This document shows positions 44,107 to 50,401 of a stretch of DNA of 64,000 nucleotides, piece after piece; positions within the stretch are counted from its first letter, which is position 1; each line of letters begins with the position of its first letter. Source of the DNA: Chlorobaculum parvum NCIB 8327 (GTDB lineage: Bacteria > Bacteroidota > Chlorobiia > Chlorobiales > Chlorobiaceae); assembly GCF_000020505.1 (NCBI RefSeq), contig NC_011027.1:1844001-1908000 (forward strand). The letters run 5' to 3'. A model generated the notes under the pieces. It did no database searches. It had not been told where the DNA came from and saw only the letters and a list, made by a program, of their open reading frames with translations. Position numbers and translations under genes: made by a program.

Positions 44107-47100
44107 TCATAATCCGGATTTTTCAAGTACCAGCTCACACTCAAGCTCGTTGATCGCGTAGGGCACACCGGGCTTCGATGACGGGCAGTTCAGCTCGACG
44201 GCCAGCGTCTCTTCCATAATGTAGGTCTCGTACTGACGAATGGCATCGGCCAGCTTGCCGGATGCGTTGAGATGCAGCACGATCCGGTCGGTGATTTCGA
44301 GCCCGCTCTCCTTGCGGACGGTCTGAATCCTGCTGACCAGCTCGCGGGCCAGACCCATCAGCTCCAGCTCTTCGGTAATCTCCGTGTCGAGCGCCACCAT
44401 GATGCGGTGCGCGTCGTCGGCTGCCACGAGCCACCCCTCGATGTCCTCATGCACGATATCGACGTCCGTCCGCTCAATTTTGAAGAGGCGTCCGTCGAGG
44501 TCAATCTCGATCTCACCCTCCTGTTCGAGCCGCGCGATCTGCTTGTGGCTCATGATCCGGATCTCTTCGGCCAGCGCTTTCATGTCTTTGCCGAAGCGTG
44601 GGCCGAGGGTCTTGAAGTTTGGCTTGGCCTTTTTGCTGATGACCGAGCCCTCTTCGTCCTCGACGTACTCGATCTTCTGGACGTTGACCTCTTCCTTGAT
44701 GATGTCGGAGACCAGCTCGTAGGAAGCCCGAGAACCGGGTTCGGCAGCGGCGAGCAGGATGCGCTTCAACGGCTGACGCACCTTGATGGAAGCCTTTTCG
44801 CGCATGGTGCGCACCAGTGACGTAATGATCTGCGCCTTCTTCATCCGCTCTTCGAGCGCCTCGTCGATGCAGCTTTCATCAGCTACCGGCCAGTCGGCCA
44901 GGTGTACCGATTCGGCCTTCGCAGTTCCGCCGACGCTCTTCAGATCCAGCCAGATTTTTTCAGCGATGAAGGGGGCGAACGGAGCCATCAGCTTCGAGAG
45001 CGTTTCGAGCACCGTGGCGAGGGTCTGGTAAGCCGAGAGCTTGTCCGGCCCCATCTCGCCCTTCCAGAAGCGTTTGCGCGAGCGGCGGATATACCAGTTC
45101 GACAGGTCGTCAACCGTAAAGTCGCCAATGAGTCGGCTCGCGCCGGTCAGGTCGTAACTCTCCATGCGGCGCGTCACTTCGGCAACGAGCGTGTTGAGGC
45201 TGGAGAGCACCCAGCGGTCGAGCTCCGAACGCTCGGCGAACGGAATGGTGGCCTCTTCGTTGCGGAAGCCATCGACGTTGGCGTAGAGCACGAAGAAGTT
45301 GTAGCTGTTGATGAAGGCGCGGAAGAACTTGCGCTGCTCCTCCTCGATTTCGGCAACGTTGAAAAGCTTGGGACGCCACGGCGGGCTGGTAATCATCAGG
45401 TACCAGCGGATGGCGTCCGCGCCGTACTGCTCCATTGACTCGAACGGATCGACCACATTGCCCTTCGACTTGGACATTTTCTGCCCTTTTTTGTCGAGGA
45501 TGTGGCCGTTGACGACCAGGTTCCGGTAGGCCGGGCGGTCGAAGATGAGCGTCGCGATGGCGTGCAGCGTGTAGAACCAGCCGCGCGTCTGATCGACGCC
45601 CTCGGCGATAAAGTCCGCCGGGAAGGTCTTGTCGAACAGCTCTTTGTTCTCGAACGGGTAGTGGAGCTGGGCGAAGGGCATCGAGCCGCTGTCGAACCAG
45701 ACGTCGATCAGCTCCGGCGTACGATTGAAGCGCTTGCCGTCGCGGACAAACCAGATGCGATCAACGAAAGGCTTGTGCAGGTCGAGTTCAACGAGGCCCT
45801 TGTCGAGCGCGTCGCCGAGATTCATCTGCTGGCCGTCGATGTCGATGAAGCCCTCGCGCAGCTCCGCGACCGAGCCGACCGCGAAAAGCTTGCCGGAGTC
45901 GGGGCCGTCGCCAATGGCGAAATCCTCGGCGACCCATACCGGCAGTGGCGTTCCCCAGAAGCGTTCGCGGGAGAGCGCCCAGTCCTTGTTTTCTTCGAGC
46001 CAGTTGCCGAAGCGTCCCGCGCCGATCTCGGAAGGATTCCAGTTGATCGTCTTGTTCAGCTCCACCATGCGCGGCGCGATATCGGTGGTGCGGATGTACC
46101 ACGACTCGCGAGCATAATAGATCACCGGCACGTCGTAACGCCACGAGAAGGGGTAGGTGTGCTGGATCGTTTCGCGGCGGTAGAGCTTACCCTCCTCCTT
46201 GAGCCGCTGCATGATCGGCTTGTCGGCCTCCTTGAAGAACATACCCTCGTAATCGGGCACCTCGGCGGTGAAGCAGCCGTTACGCGCCACTGGCTGAAGC
46301 ATCGGAAGCTGGTACTGCTTCGACAGCTCGTAGTCATCCGCGCCGAACGCCGGAGCGATATGCACGATGCCCGTGCCGTCGCCGGTCGAAACGAAGTCGC
46401 CGCACGCCACGTACCAGGCACGGCGCTCGGGCGAGAAGTAGTTGAAGAGCGGCTCGTAGTCGCGCCCTTCGAGGTCGCTGCCCGTCATGCGATCGATGAT
46501 CTCCCACGCCGACTCGTCGCCGATTTTGTCAGTCAGCACCGACAGGCGCGACTCGGCCAGAATCAGCACCTCACCGGTTTCGCGATGCTTGACGCGCACA
46601 TAGTCGATGTCGCGGCCGACGGCGAGGGCGACGTTCGAGATGAGCGTCCACGGCGTGGTCGTCCAGACGAGAATGCTTTCGTCCGAATCCTTCAGGCGGA
46701 ACTTGACATAGACGCTCGGATCCTGCACCTCCTTGTAACCCAGCGCCAGCTCGTGTGAACTGAGCACGGTCTCGGACTTCGGATCCTGCGGAACGATCTT
46801 GTAATCCTTGTAAATCAGCCCTTTGTCGAAAATGGTTTTCAGCGCCCACCAGACCGACTCGATATAATTATTATCGCAAGTGATATACGGGCTGTCCATA
46901 TCGACCCAGTAGCCCATCCGCTCGGTGAGCTTGCCCCACCCCTCACGGTTGTCGTCGATGTGGTGGTAAACCAGCGAACGCGCTTCGCGGTTGAACTCGC
47001 CAACGCCATACTCCTCGACATGCGACTTGTTCTTCAGGCCAAGCTTCTTCTCGACCGAGATTTCGACCGGCAGACCGTGCGTGTCCCATCCCGCCTTGCG

Positions 47101-47349
47101 TGGCACCTGATAGCCCTGCATGGCATGGTAGCGGCAGACCACATCCTTGATAGTGCGGCTGAACAGGTGGTGCACGCCGGGCTTGCCATTCACCGTTGGC
47201 GGGCCTTCATAGAAGGAGTAGATGCCCTTCGGCGCATCCTTTTCAAGGCTCTTCCTGAAAATATTCCGTTCGATCCAGAACTCGCGGATTTGCGCTTCCA
47301 TGGCGCTGTAGGAAAGGCTGGACGGGTATTCGGGATAGGTGTCGGGCAT
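44107..47349 (-). CDS. ileS: Isoleucyl-tRNA synthetase (type 2, Bacteroidetes/Chlorobi-like)
   Basis: Charges tRNA-Ile; class I enzyme of 1080 residues with an editing domain. The HIGH motif is replaced by GVHH ([17 protein letters not shown]), as in Bacteroidetes enzymes, and KMSKSKGN is intact. It belongs to the longer eukaryote/archaea-like type that is generally less sensitive to mupirocin (family knowledge). The CP1 editing domain includes [14 protein letters not shown] at 47349 ([11 protein letters not shown]) by homology; the frame is open 53 codons upstream with no family content. The C-terminal zinc-binding domain of type 1 enzymes is absent. Confidence 0.96.
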
Positions 47350-47530
47350 GGTCGCTGGGAATGTCAAACTGGAAATATCATAAGCGGGAAACGGGGCGAG
47401 CAACCCCTCTCCGCAGAAAAGTCTGAATATACGAGAATCGGCTGGAAAAGAGAAAGGCAGGCCATTTCCACTGAAAAGACCTGCCTCCCGAAGTATCATG
47501 CGCCTCAACTATGCGGACGCTGCGAAAAGC

Positions 47531-47752
47531 TTACTGCTGCTTGTTGTTGTCGCCGAGCGTCGTGCTGATGCCGTCGAGGATCTGGTGCGCCACGACCGTC
47601 ATCGAATCGAGCGCAGAAGCCACGACCTTGCTCAGAGGCGTCAGAGCGCCATCAAGCATCGTGCCGAGACCGACAAGAATGGTTGCGAAATCACCTTTGA
47701 CCACATCGCCAACCGGCTGTCCCGGGTTGGGAGATTTCATTTCTTCAGACAT
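47531..47752 (-). CDS. Small amphipathic protein, possible chlorosome envelope protein (CsmB/CsmF-like)
   Basis: 73 residues, acidic start (MSEEMKSPNPGQPVGDVV) then a hydrophobic, Ala/Val/Leu/Ser-rich stretch (LVGLGTMLDGALTPLSKVVA, then LDSMTVVAHQILDGISTTLG) and a polar tail (GDNNKQQ). Size, acidic head and single long amphipathic region resemble the CsmB/CsmF chlorosome envelope proteins, but I am matching by appearance and cannot confirm it. It is a leftward gene between manC and ileS, with 181 bases to the ileS start. The reading frame is clean and codon use matches its neighbours. Confidence 0.6.
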   Translation of the reverse strand: MSEEMKSPNPGQPVGDVVKGDFATILVGLGTMLDGALTPLSKVVASALDSMTVVAHQILDGISTTLGDNNKQQ

Positions 47753-47875
47753 ATGCTACCGGAATTTTGATTGATTCGTAACTACTGTTGTCGTAATACT
47801 CTTGACAAAGTAATGTATGACAATATTCAGAGCTATCAAAACGGTGGACGCGCGGAAACGTAGATCAGGACGCGA

Positions 47876-49279
47876 TTACAGACGCCCATAGTTATCCTCG
47901 AAGCGTTCGATGTCGTCCTCGCCGAGGTACCGGCCGGACTGTACCTCGATCAGTTCGAGCGGCTCTTTTCCACGATTTTCAAGGCGATGACGAGCCTCGA
48001 CAGGAATGTAGATCGACTCGTTCTCGACAAGCTCCACCTGCCGGTCATCAACAGTGACCACAGCAGTACCCTTGACGACGATCCAGTGCTCGGCCCGCTT
48101 GTGATGCAGTTGCAGCGAAAGCGATGCGCCCGGCTTGACCGTGATGCGCTTGACCTTGAAGCGCTCTCCCTCATCGACAGTTTCGTAGGAGCCCCAGGGC
48201 CGGTAAACCCGCCGGTGAATCAGCGGCTCCTCACGCGCCTCCAAGTGGAGCTGCTCGACGATGGCCTTGACCTCCTGTACCCGATCTTTTGAGGCCACCA
48301 GCACCGCGTCGCAGGTTTCGACGACGATATGGTTTTCGAGGCCGACCGCCGCAACCAGGCGGCTGGTAGAGTGCAGGTAGCTGTTCTGGACATCGTGCGC
48401 CAGCACATCGCCGCGCATGACATTGCCTTGCGGATCGCGCTCCTGCACCTCCCAAAGCGACGACCATGCGCCGACATCGTTCCACCCGGCATCCATCGGC
48501 ACCACCATCGCCTTGGTGGTCTTCTCCATGACGGCGTAGTCGATCGAATCGGAAGGACATGCCTTGAACGCTTCGAGATCGAGACGCAGAAAGTCGAGAT
48601 CGATCCGTGCCTTTTCAACCGCTGCCCGGCAAGCGGCAAGCATCTCCGGCGCGTTCACTTCAAGCTCGGCCAGATAGACTTCGGGCCGAAAGAGGAACAT
48701 GCCGCTGTTCCAGAAATAGTCCCCCGACGCCAGGTAGCTTTCCGCCCGTTCCCGGGAAGGCTTCTCGACAAATTCCGCCACAGGCCGGGCGGCTTTCTCA
48801 GAACCGGCAACCGATCTGATGTAGCCGTACCCCGTCTCCGGCTCGTTCGGCACAATGCCAAAGGTCACCAAATTTCCATCCTCGGCAGCCTGGCGCCCCG
48901 ACTCGATTGCTTCGGCAAAGGCCTGCCGGTCGAGAATGACATGGTCGGCAGGCATGACAAGCATCAGCGAACCGGGATGCTTGTCGGCAAGCATCAGCGC
49001 GGCGACCGCAGCGGCCGGAGCCGTGTTGCGACCGACCGGCTCCAGAATGATCGCCTCTTCGTCCGCACCAATCTGCCGGAGCTGCTCGGCGACAAGAAAC
49101 CGGTGTTCGTCGTTGCAAACGCAGGTCACCGGCCCCACACCGTCGATGGTCTCGACCCGGAGCACCGTATCCTGAAGCATGGTCTTGTCGCCGAACAGCG
49201 GCAAAAGCTGTTTCGGATACAAAGCTCTCGACAGAGGCCAAAGCCTTGTTCCGGAACCGCCGCTCAAAATCACAGGCAT
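47876..49279 (-). CDS. manC: Mannose-1-phosphate guanylyltransferase/mannose-6-phosphate isomerase
   Basis: Bifunctional enzyme of GDP-mannose synthesis. 467 residues. The nucleotidyltransferase half begins MPVILSGGSGTRLWPLSR and has KPSRERAESYLASGDYFWNSGMF (shown as AESYLASGDYFWNSGMF). The C-terminal cupin half has RPWGSYE, KRITVKPGASLSLQLHHKRAEH (given as VKPGASLSLQLHHKRAEH) and the metal-site His. ATG at 49279. Last gene of the leftward rml group, 54 bases after rmlB. Confidence 0.93.
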   Translation of the reverse strand: MPVILSGGSGTRLWPLSRALYPKQLLPLFGDKTMLQDTVLRVETIDGVGPVTCVCNDEHRFLVAEQLRQIGADEEAIILEPVGRNTAPAAAVAALMLADKHPGSLMLVMPADHVILDRQAFAEAIESGRQAAEDGNLVTFGIVPNEPETGYGYIRSVAGSEKAARPVAEFVEKPSRERAESYLASGDYFWNSGMFLFRPEVYLAELEVNAPEMLAACRAAVEKARIDLDFLRLDLEAFKACPSDSIDYAVMEKTTKAMVVPMDAGWNDVGAWSSLWEVQERDPQGNVMRGDVLAHDVQNSYLHSTSRLVAAVGLENHIVVETCDAVLVASKDRVQEVKAIVEQLHLEAREEPLIHRRVYRPWGSYETVDEGERFKVKRITVKPGASLSLQLHHKRAEHWIVVKGTAVVTVDDRQVELVENESIYIPVEARHRLENRGKEPLELIEVQSGRYLGEDDIERFEDNYGRL

Positions 49280-49333
49280 AATCATAAGCACAGTGTCAAT
49301 GCAATGGTCAAGTCCGAATATCCCGATCCGTTC

Positions 49334-50383
49334 TCAGCGGCTGGCATACATCGTTTCATAGTAGTGTTGATAAGCTCCGGAAGTTACCTCGTCGAGCCAG
49401 TCCTGGTTGTCGAGATACCAGTCGACCGTCTTTTCGAGCCCCTCTTCAAAGGTGACCGAGGGCACCCAGCCAAGTTCGCGTTGCAGCTTCGAGGCGTCGA
49501 TGGCGTAACGCAAGTCATGGCCCGCGCGGTCGGTCACGTAGGTGATGAGCGTCTCGGAGCTCCCATCATCACGGCCAAGCTTGCGATCCATGATGCGGCA
49601 GAGCAGGCGGATGAGGTCGATGTTCGTCCATTCGTTGTGCCCGCCGATGTTGTAGGTCTCGCCGACTGTCCCTCGATGGAAGATTTCATCGATAGCCCGC
49701 GCGTGATCGACGACCCAAAGCCAGTCGCGAACGTTGAGCCCCGCGCCGTACACCGGCAGCGGCTTCTCCAGGCGGATATTGTTGATGAAGAGCGGAATCA
49801 GCTTTTCAGGGAACTGGTGCGAGCCGTAGTTGTTCGAACAGTTGCTGATGACCACGGGCAGACCGTAGGTGTCGTGAAAAGCTCGGACGAAGTGATCGGA
49901 AGAGGCCTTCGAGGCCGAATAGGGGCTGTGAGGATCGTAGGGCGTGGTTTCGGAAAACATCCCCCCGCTGCCGAGCGAGCCGTACACCTCGTCGGTCGAA
50001 ACGTGGTAGAAAAGCTTGCCATCGAACTTGCCGCCCCACGTGGCGCGCGCCGCATTAAGCAGGTTGACCGTGCCAAGCACGTTGGCAATCACGAACTCGA
50101 CCGGACTTTCGATCGAGCGATCAACATGCGACTCGGCAGCGAGATGAACCACCGCATCAAACCGCTGCTCGTTGAACAGATCGAGCAAAAACGGGCCGTC
50201 GGCAATGTCACCCTTCACGAAACGGTAGTTCGGATTCGATTCGACATCTTTCAGATTGGCCAGATTGCCGGCGTAGGTAAGCTTGTCGAGATTGGTAACC
50301 GTGTAGTCGGGATAACGGTTCAGGAAATGCCTGACGACATGCGATCCGATAAACCCCGCCCCGCCCGTGATAAGAATATGCAT
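49334..50383 (-). CDS. rmlB: dTDP-glucose 4,6-dehydratase
   Basis: Second step of dTDP-L-rhamnose synthesis. 349 residues, SDR fold. GGAGFIGSHVVRHFL at the N terminus (NAD), HLAAESHVDRSI, STDEVYGSLG and the catalytic YSASKASSDH, with the extended YxxxK. The NNYGSHQFPEKLIP and VYGAGLNVRDW blocks are RmlB-specific. Fourth gene of the rmlA-rmlC-rmlD-rmlB order; 84 bases, with a GTAGGGGCAACC repeat, separate it from rmlD. Confidence 0.97.
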   Translation of the reverse strand: MHILITGGAGFIGSHVVRHFLNRYPDYTVTNLDKLTYAGNLANLKDVESNPNYRFVKGDIADGPFLLDLFNEQRFDAVVHLAAESHVDRSIESPVEFVIANVLGTVNLLNAARATWGGKFDGKLFYHVSTDEVYGSLGSGGMFSETTPYDPHSPYSASKASSDHFVRAFHDTYGLPVVISNCSNNYGSHQFPEKLIPLFINNIRLEKPLPVYGAGLNVRDWLWVVDHARAIDEIFHRGTVGETYNIGGHNEWTNIDLIRLLCRIMDRKLGRDDGSSETLITYVTDRAGHDLRYAIDASKLQRELGWVPSVTFEEGLEKTVDWYLDNQDWLDEVTSGAYQHYYETMYASR

Positions 50384-50401
50384 AGTTTATAAGAGAACGT
50401 T

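Follow-up and report, generated by a model that had tools for sequence, protein, structure and literature searches.

N73, a small conserved relative of CsmH and probable chlorosome envelope protein of the Chlorobiaceae

Chlorosomes, which the Chlorobiaceae carry, rank with the largest and most efficient of light-harvesting antennae. Within a 64,000-nucleotide stretch of the Chlorobaculum parvum NCIB 8327 genome (the window; the genome is a single contig of 2,289,249 bases), an earlier note had picked out a 73-residue protein that resembled chlorosome envelope proteins and was thought to fit CsmB and CsmF. The locus raises the questions of whether a gene is present here, to which envelope proteins its product is related and whether that product belongs to the chlorosome coat. 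The protein is given the working name N73, and the features of the locus are as follows.

47531..47752, minus strand: N73 coding sequence, with a polar N-terminus (residues 1-15), a predicted long amphipathic helix (about residues 16-71) and a polar tail
47876..49291, minus strand: ManC-like mannose-1-phosphate guanylyltransferase ORF, upstream of N73, where an rfb-type sugar cluster ends
44107..47349, minus strand: ileS, downstream of N73, its start taken at an ATG
47812..47839, minus strand: promoter-like site, TTGATA - 16 nt - TACATT, upstream of N73
47753..47811, minus strand: 5' leader of N73, with no obvious Shine-Dalgarno sequence
47444..47489, minus strand: likely intrinsic terminator, an AGGCAGG...CCTGCCT hairpin with a T-rich tail, downstream of N73

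The N73 reading frame opens with an ATG at 47752 and runs on the minus strand for 73 codons and a stop (full translation MSEEMKSPNPGQPVGDVVKGDFATILVGLGTMLDGALTPLSKVVASALDSMTVVAHQILDGISTTLGDNNKQQ). Its N-terminus reads MSEEMKSPNPGQ, followed by a long Ala/Val/Leu/Ser/Thr/Gly stretch and the polar tail DNNKQQ; the calculated pI is 4.4. The composition described earlier, an acidic head, a long Ala/Val/Leu/Ser stretch and a short polar tail, is thereby borne out. The calculated mass is 7.3-7.5 kDa; the copy in the C. tepidum-like genome G102 comes to 7.28 kDa without Met, and its predicted tryptic peptides, as read from the sequence, include SPNQNQPVGDVVK and GDFATILVGLGTMLDGALTPLSK. Members of the family end in DNNKQQ, LGDKK, LGGKK and similar sequences, and 15 residues (M1, E3, G20, D21, G30, D34, P39, K42, L48, D49, S50, V54, A55, L59 and G61) are invariant in all 48 sequences of the N73 profile, termed A2, which was used for whole-genome searches at E 0.1.

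The A2 profile matched all 86 Chlorobiaceae genomes, and N73 itself is counted in 83 of them, because the match in three genomes of 81-88% completeness (G288, G323 and G350) coincides with CsmH. All 65 good-quality genomes of the family (at least 90% complete, at most 5% contaminated) contain N73, and A2 at E 0.1 matched nothing in the order's 12 remaining genomes. A scan of genome contigs returned 30 loci, every one with a title naming Chlorobaculum, Chlorobium, Pelodictyon, Chlorobiaceae or Chlorobiales. Of the named relatives, contigs of Chlorobaculum parvum carry the closest copies, at 97-99% identity. When the single N73 sequence was searched against other families of the phylum, 15 genomes gave chance-level matches (E 0.0099-0.09), and the overall single-sequence tally of 99 of 394 genomes mixes in CsmH-only and chance matches, which makes it unsuitable as a count of N73. 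Among the Chlorobiales genomes searched by profile, the protein is confined to a chlorosome-bearing lineage. Comparison with one relative, the G102 copy, over a 46-codon core revealed 2, 1 and 19 differences at first, second and third codon positions (dN 0.035, dS 0.83), and the gene is under purifying selection. Retention in 83 of 86 genomes under such selection confirms that a real gene encodes the 73-residue protein. Two near-identical copies were observed on two short contigs (L001 and L002) of G378, a genome with 9% contamination; these probably represent two strains and no duplication.

The gene sits apart from other photosynthesis genes, between a sugar cluster and ileS, as had been noted earlier from the sequence; the neighbouring end of the cluster is ManC-like, and both neighbour names are our assignment from the sequences. 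The upstream neighbour and ileS each occur in 80 of the 83 N73 loci, a redundant set in which manC-like and galE-like ORFs fall together in the upstream cluster. Among the loci listed, N73 lies between manC and ileS wherever the flanks are long enough, save in one genome; the exceptions among them are the contig ends L001, L010, L033 and L046, together with L164. In this last locus, from G354, N73 is found off the manC-ileS site, 2.6 kb from csmH, with ORFs between them that we take to be mobB-like, bshB1-like and dut-like. On one contig of G256 (C194), 3.2 kb separate the N73 match from the CsmH match. Long ORFs also run antisense to the neighbours of the gene in the window, at 45502-46758 (plus strand, 418 aa) opposite ileS and at 48329-50392 (plus strand, 687 aa) opposite manC and rfb genes, and are likely artefacts of GC-rich codon bias.

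Signs in the flanking sequence suggest that N73 forms its own transcription unit, in most loci with its own promoter-like site and terminator. Of 60 distinct loci, 52 have the pattern TTTGA-N17..21-TAnnnT ahead of the gene, against a mean of 2 and a maximum of 7 in mononucleotide shuffles. The loci without it are L003, L007, L008, L023, L024, L025, L043 and L164; the last of these has a promoter-like variant, TTGA...TACCTT, and a different hairpin after the gene. When the stem must be at least 7, 60 of 61 distinct loci have a hairpin and a T-rich tail beyond the stop codon (maximum of 16 in 10 shuffles), and when it must be at least 9, 59 of 61 do (shuffle maximum 3); L018 has neither class, and L019 is without the longer one only. 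In many relatives the stem is CAGGCAAGC...GCTTGCCTG with pairing kept, and the shift between groups from AGGCAGG/CCTGCCT to AGGCAAG/CTTGCCT preserves the pairing. Within the window, the hairpin folds moderately better than shuffled sequences (z -2.1; 7 of 200 as good), an automatic terminator scan that accepted only loops of 3-8 passed it over, and Rfam gave no match over 47200-48000 at gathering thresholds. An RNA element or attenuator between N73 and ileS was considered and set aside in favor of a plain terminator, which fits better because the hairpin follows the stop in 60 of 61 loci and changes in the stem keep pairing. The idea that a leader without a Shine-Dalgarno sequence is a common signal of csmB, csmF, csmH and N73 was likewise dropped; such a leader is not distinctive, because an SD-like match precedes only 13 of the 35 window ORFs scored, a rough count given that starts are uncertain.

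Among the envelope proteins with which N73 was compared, CsmH is recognized in these genomes: NCBIfam TIGR03058 (rpt_csmH, 'chlorosome envelope protein H') identifies the frame L062:4180-4809 at 4.3e-27, CsmH of the window's genome (G000) scores 93.6 bits against a cut-off of 60, and CsmH of G102, without its Met, is calculated at 21.65 kDa, versus the published 21.6 kDa (PMC3175400). A profile-profile comparison with hhalign aligned N73 and CsmH from the first residues of both over 66 columns (96.5%, E 9.8e-10, score 58.7), whereas 40 control comparisons against CsmH (1 reversed, 39 column-shuffled) reached a score of 21.7 at most. In G000, N73 and CsmH were the sole A2 matches, CsmH at E 3.3e-6, and 77 of the 86 family genomes gave at least two A2 matches. 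The second matches, among those listed, lie in frames of 105-295 codons with E values of about 1e-5 to 7e-9, and are confirmed as CsmH only where CsmH was searched or its sequence inspected. Conversely, the CsmH profile found N73 in G071 (E 4.4e-6) and did not find it in G000 or G102 at E 0.1; against 4862 ORFs of the collected loci, the best 22 non-CsmH matches listed were all N73. The single N73 sequence reached CsmH at the edge only (E 0.09).

The alignment covers N73 almost entirely and corresponds to CsmH residues of about 2-77, that is, the N-terminus and the first repeat. Both proteins have the MaEE start, the motif GD....G.G.LiDst and a helix ending in QileGvn.t (Q-I-L-x-G-[VI]-[NS]), with a variable linker. 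They differ in size, 73 aa in N73 against 192 to about 265 aa in CsmH, and N73, encoded by a separate gene, is without the CsmH repeats, C-terminal part and Pro/Ala-rich tail; no NCBIfam family, the 27-residue csmH repeat of TIGR03058 included, matched it at E 10. The range of CsmH lengths across genomes (L062-L069, L164) arises largely from the number of 27-residue repeats. CsmH was found in all six family genomes tried. The order's other 12 genomes gave no convincing CsmH, a partial match in G386 (E 0.055, profile residues 37-68) being taken as chance, so that within the genomes tested the two proteins share one range. Because both profile-profile and whole-genome profile matches connect them, common descent of N73 with CsmH is well supported, and N73 is best filed as a CsmH-related small protein outside TIGR03058. 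The earlier suggestion of a chlorosome-envelope-type protein therefore stands at the level of homology, through CsmH and its 96.5% match, while the specific fit to CsmB/CsmF proved weaker, at 92.6% and with no genome-wide match.

For that comparison CsmB and CsmF had to be located first, as Pfam and NCBIfam do not name them. Both were picked by a composition screen and then checked by mass; the stretches screened were chosen by locus number, and the names are our assignment, presumed and not taken from records. In G102 the calculated masses without Met are 7.48 kDa for CsmB and 7.61 kDa for CsmF, and PMC3175400 gives fitting masses of 7.5 and 7.6 kDa. The joint CsmB/F profile aligned with N73 at 92.6% and a score of 37.2 (maximum of 40 controls, 21.8), and with CsmH at 21%. 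In searches of G000, G102 and G071 at E 0.1, this profile (A3) found CsmB and CsmF and did not find N73, a result that goes against the CsmB/CsmF fit that such a search had been proposed to check. Within the 4862-ORF set, the best N73 member, the duplicated form from G307, was matched at 3.2e-6 and the other listed members at about 3e-4 to 5e-3. N73 and CsmB/F are alike in size, acidic pI and helical periodicity, and align in segments such as PLSKVVA...VAHQILDGIS and PLGKTAT...VATQVLQNVS. The alignment nevertheless requires a 14-residue gap in N73, which is also without the APKK/APKQ-type C-terminal ending of CsmB and CsmF. CsmB-like matches, moreover, extend to a second family of the order (f2) and were found in two of the 12 Chlorobiales genomes outside the Chlorobiaceae (G005 and G083, best E 4e-8 and 1e-7), whereas N73 does not extend so far. 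A link of N73 to CsmB/CsmF is likely on these comparisons but not settled.

Genes of the CsmB/CsmF type are expanded in some Chlorobium-type genomes, including G090, G241, G225, G370 and others; G090 has up to 7 CsmB and 9 CsmF matches (overlapping sets, E 0.01), versus 2 in G000. A further observation concerns a 148-aa Ala/Ser/Val-rich ORF with a Shine-Dalgarno sequence about 230 bases downstream of csmE (L078:460-906, plus strand, equivalent to G000:C1:2136360-2136806). Similar ORFs occur in G052 and G102 (81% and 76% over about 105 residues), and matches elsewhere are weak, with 6 of 15 genomes reached at E 0.01. Although it looks unrelated to N73, the CsmB/F profile matches it weakly (E 6.5e-4), level with most listed N73 members, and it is possibly another chlorosome protein.

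AlphaFold placed residues 16-71 of N73 in one helix with low confidence (mean pLDDT 67, pTM 0.28), and predicted two helices for CsmB, again with low confidence (pLDDT 65). Hydrophobicity in N73 is strongest at a period of 98 degrees per residue, a value that 69 of 5000 shuffles reach, and the sequence shows moderate amphipathic periodicity. The corresponding periods are 99 degrees for CsmB/F (0 of 5000 shuffles) and 94 degrees for CsmH (11 of 5000), the latter with little power at 100. With periods of 98 and 99 against 94 degrees, N73 is helically closer to CsmB/F than to whole CsmH. Differences in length include the 14-residue gap between N73 and CsmB/F, the 27-residue CsmH repeat and an 18-residue in-frame tandem duplication within the 89-aa N73 of G307 (L149:3913-4182), which equals five helical turns and keeps the helical register.

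Public libraries did not name N73. Pfam gave nothing above cut-off, the best sub-threshold entry being HAMP_2 at E 0.0094 (5.5e-4 with the L153 orthologue), and a HAMP identity was rejected as it lies below cut-off and covers half of the helix. NCBIfam returned no family at E 10, and no PDB chain matched better than E 0.34. Pfam has a name for CsmC (PF11098) and NCBIfam one for CsmH (TIGR03058), but the CsmB and CsmF found here had no named match in Pfam or NCBIfam, CsmB reaching Phasin_2 at E 0.013, below cut-off. Silence of these libraries on N73 is uninformative for that reason; relatives of CsmB and CsmF go unnamed, and profiles of our own were built. CsmA/CsmE and CsmC were found in the genome of N73 by PF02043 and PF11098, and N73 differs from them in having no Pfam match to either model at E 10.

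The reading we prefer, with reasonable though incomplete confidence, is that N73 is a small, separately transcribed relative of CsmH and, most likely, regularly present in the chlorosome envelope of Chlorobiaceae; because it is conserved, helical and related to CsmH, it is probably one more coat protein. CsmB/F- and CsmC/D-type proteins reportedly influence chlorosome size, shape and composition (a finding attributed to Li and Bryant, 2009). N73 would amount to the N-terminal segment of CsmH plus one repeat, produced as a stand-alone protein. Its long amphipathic helix may sit within the lipid monolayer that encloses the bacteriochlorophyll aggregates, with the hydrophobic face turned inward and with CsmH and CsmB/CsmF as neighbours; PMC4992139 and PMC12214013 describe the chlorosome as bounded by such a monolayer. 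There, N73 could help to set the curvature, size or stability of the envelope and, by analogy, would add coat density or curvature in partial redundancy with CsmH. The sequences establish a conserved gene, kept across the family, with homology to CsmH, moderate amphipathic periodicity and signs of a transcription unit of its own, whereas location in the chlorosome, monolayer binding and an effect on size or shape are inferred. In profile searches, N73 and CsmH were both absent from G005; if this genome is Chloroherpeton, a chlorosome bearer, as we presume it may be, neither protein would be needed for chlorosomes in general.

Homology indicates descent and not place, and a protein of CsmH ancestry could work elsewhere, for example where chlorosomes attach to the cytoplasmic membrane, on its inner face, or on some other body that is hydrophobic or bounded by lipid. 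The gene's position between manC and ileS would suit such a role, as would the missing CsmH repeats and Pro/Ala-rich tail. However, the part of N73 that is conserved is the very segment held in common with CsmH, and the two proteins occupy the same range as far as tested, which leaves a role outside the coat unlikely. Convergence is a second alternative, in which an unrelated phasin-like or coiled-coil amphipathic helix mimics Csm proteins through its A/V/L/S/T/G composition. The sub-threshold cross-matches (HAMP_2 with N73, Phasin_2 with CsmB) and the csmE-adjacent Ala/Ser-rich ORF, to which the CsmB/F profile gives about the same score as to most of the N73 members listed, are compatible with this idea. 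Yet scores fall far below this for controls of equal composition, the alignment with CsmH begins with the first residues of each protein and preserves MaEE..GD....G.G.LiDst, and A2 finds nothing at E 0.1 in 12 related genomes; convergence appears quite improbable.

A third alternative would place N73 with the reaction centre or the FMO complex, as an accessory subunit. A precedent exists for late-found small photosynthetic proteins in Chlorobaculum, since PMC9529944 reports that PscE and PscF were recognised in 2022 as accessory subunits of the reaction centre/FMO complex, and small photosynthetic proteins of green sulfur bacteria have been identified recently by cryo-EM and mass spectrometry. 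In that same account PscE is a charged-residue-rich helix-turn-helix and PscF consists of four membrane helices, architectures that differ from that of N73, and with the best PDB match at E 0.34 no sequence match to either was found there; we regard this role as very improbable. Finally, that N73 is no gene at all and merely a chance ORF in the manC-ileS spacer might be argued from its shortness and the overlapping ORFs on the opposite strand, but this is refuted by conservation, the frame being kept in 83 of 86 genomes, changing mainly at third codon positions and recurring at another site in L164, and it retains practically no probability.

On the reading of N73 as an envelope constituent, its place among the known chlorosome proteins has to be considered. 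In C. tepidum, a naturally transformable species (PMC12214013), the inventory comprises ten envelope proteins, according to PMC3175400, and these leave no place for N73, as the 7.5 and 7.6 kDa species fit CsmB and CsmF and N73 has a calculated mass of 7.28 kDa in G102. Our literature search found no paper naming N73; key chlorosome papers were outside its scope, and absence from print is not established by it. The accessible parts of PMC10849945, PMC3415949, PMC1887533, PMC12285230, PMC3175400, PMC12214013, PMC9529944 and PMC4992139 contain no recognisable mention, a core proteome table includes CsmB and CsmC and has no entry between CT0254 and CT0351 in the portion available (PMC12285230), and queries with guessed N73 tags, CT0345-CT0350, gave nothing relevant. 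On balance, we lean towards N73 being an eleventh chlorosome envelope protein of the Chlorobiaceae that the ten-protein inventory missed, a one-unit form of CsmH and its minimal building block. It could have escaped notice as a 7.3 kDa protein hidden beside CsmB and CsmF on gels, with no family model and a gene away from the photosynthesis genes.

If this is correct, a further envelope protein present in all 65 good-quality Chlorobiaceae genomes would change the ten-protein inventory. The one-unit N73 would serve as a reference with which to compare the repeats of CsmH and perhaps the CsmB/CsmF helix, and helix length, in steps of 14, 18 and 27 residues, might act as a ruler for the coat of the lipid monolayer. 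Chlorosomes persist when several Csm proteins are lost, and N73 would bear on the redundancy among them. It would also provide a small model of a monolayer-binding amphipathic helix.
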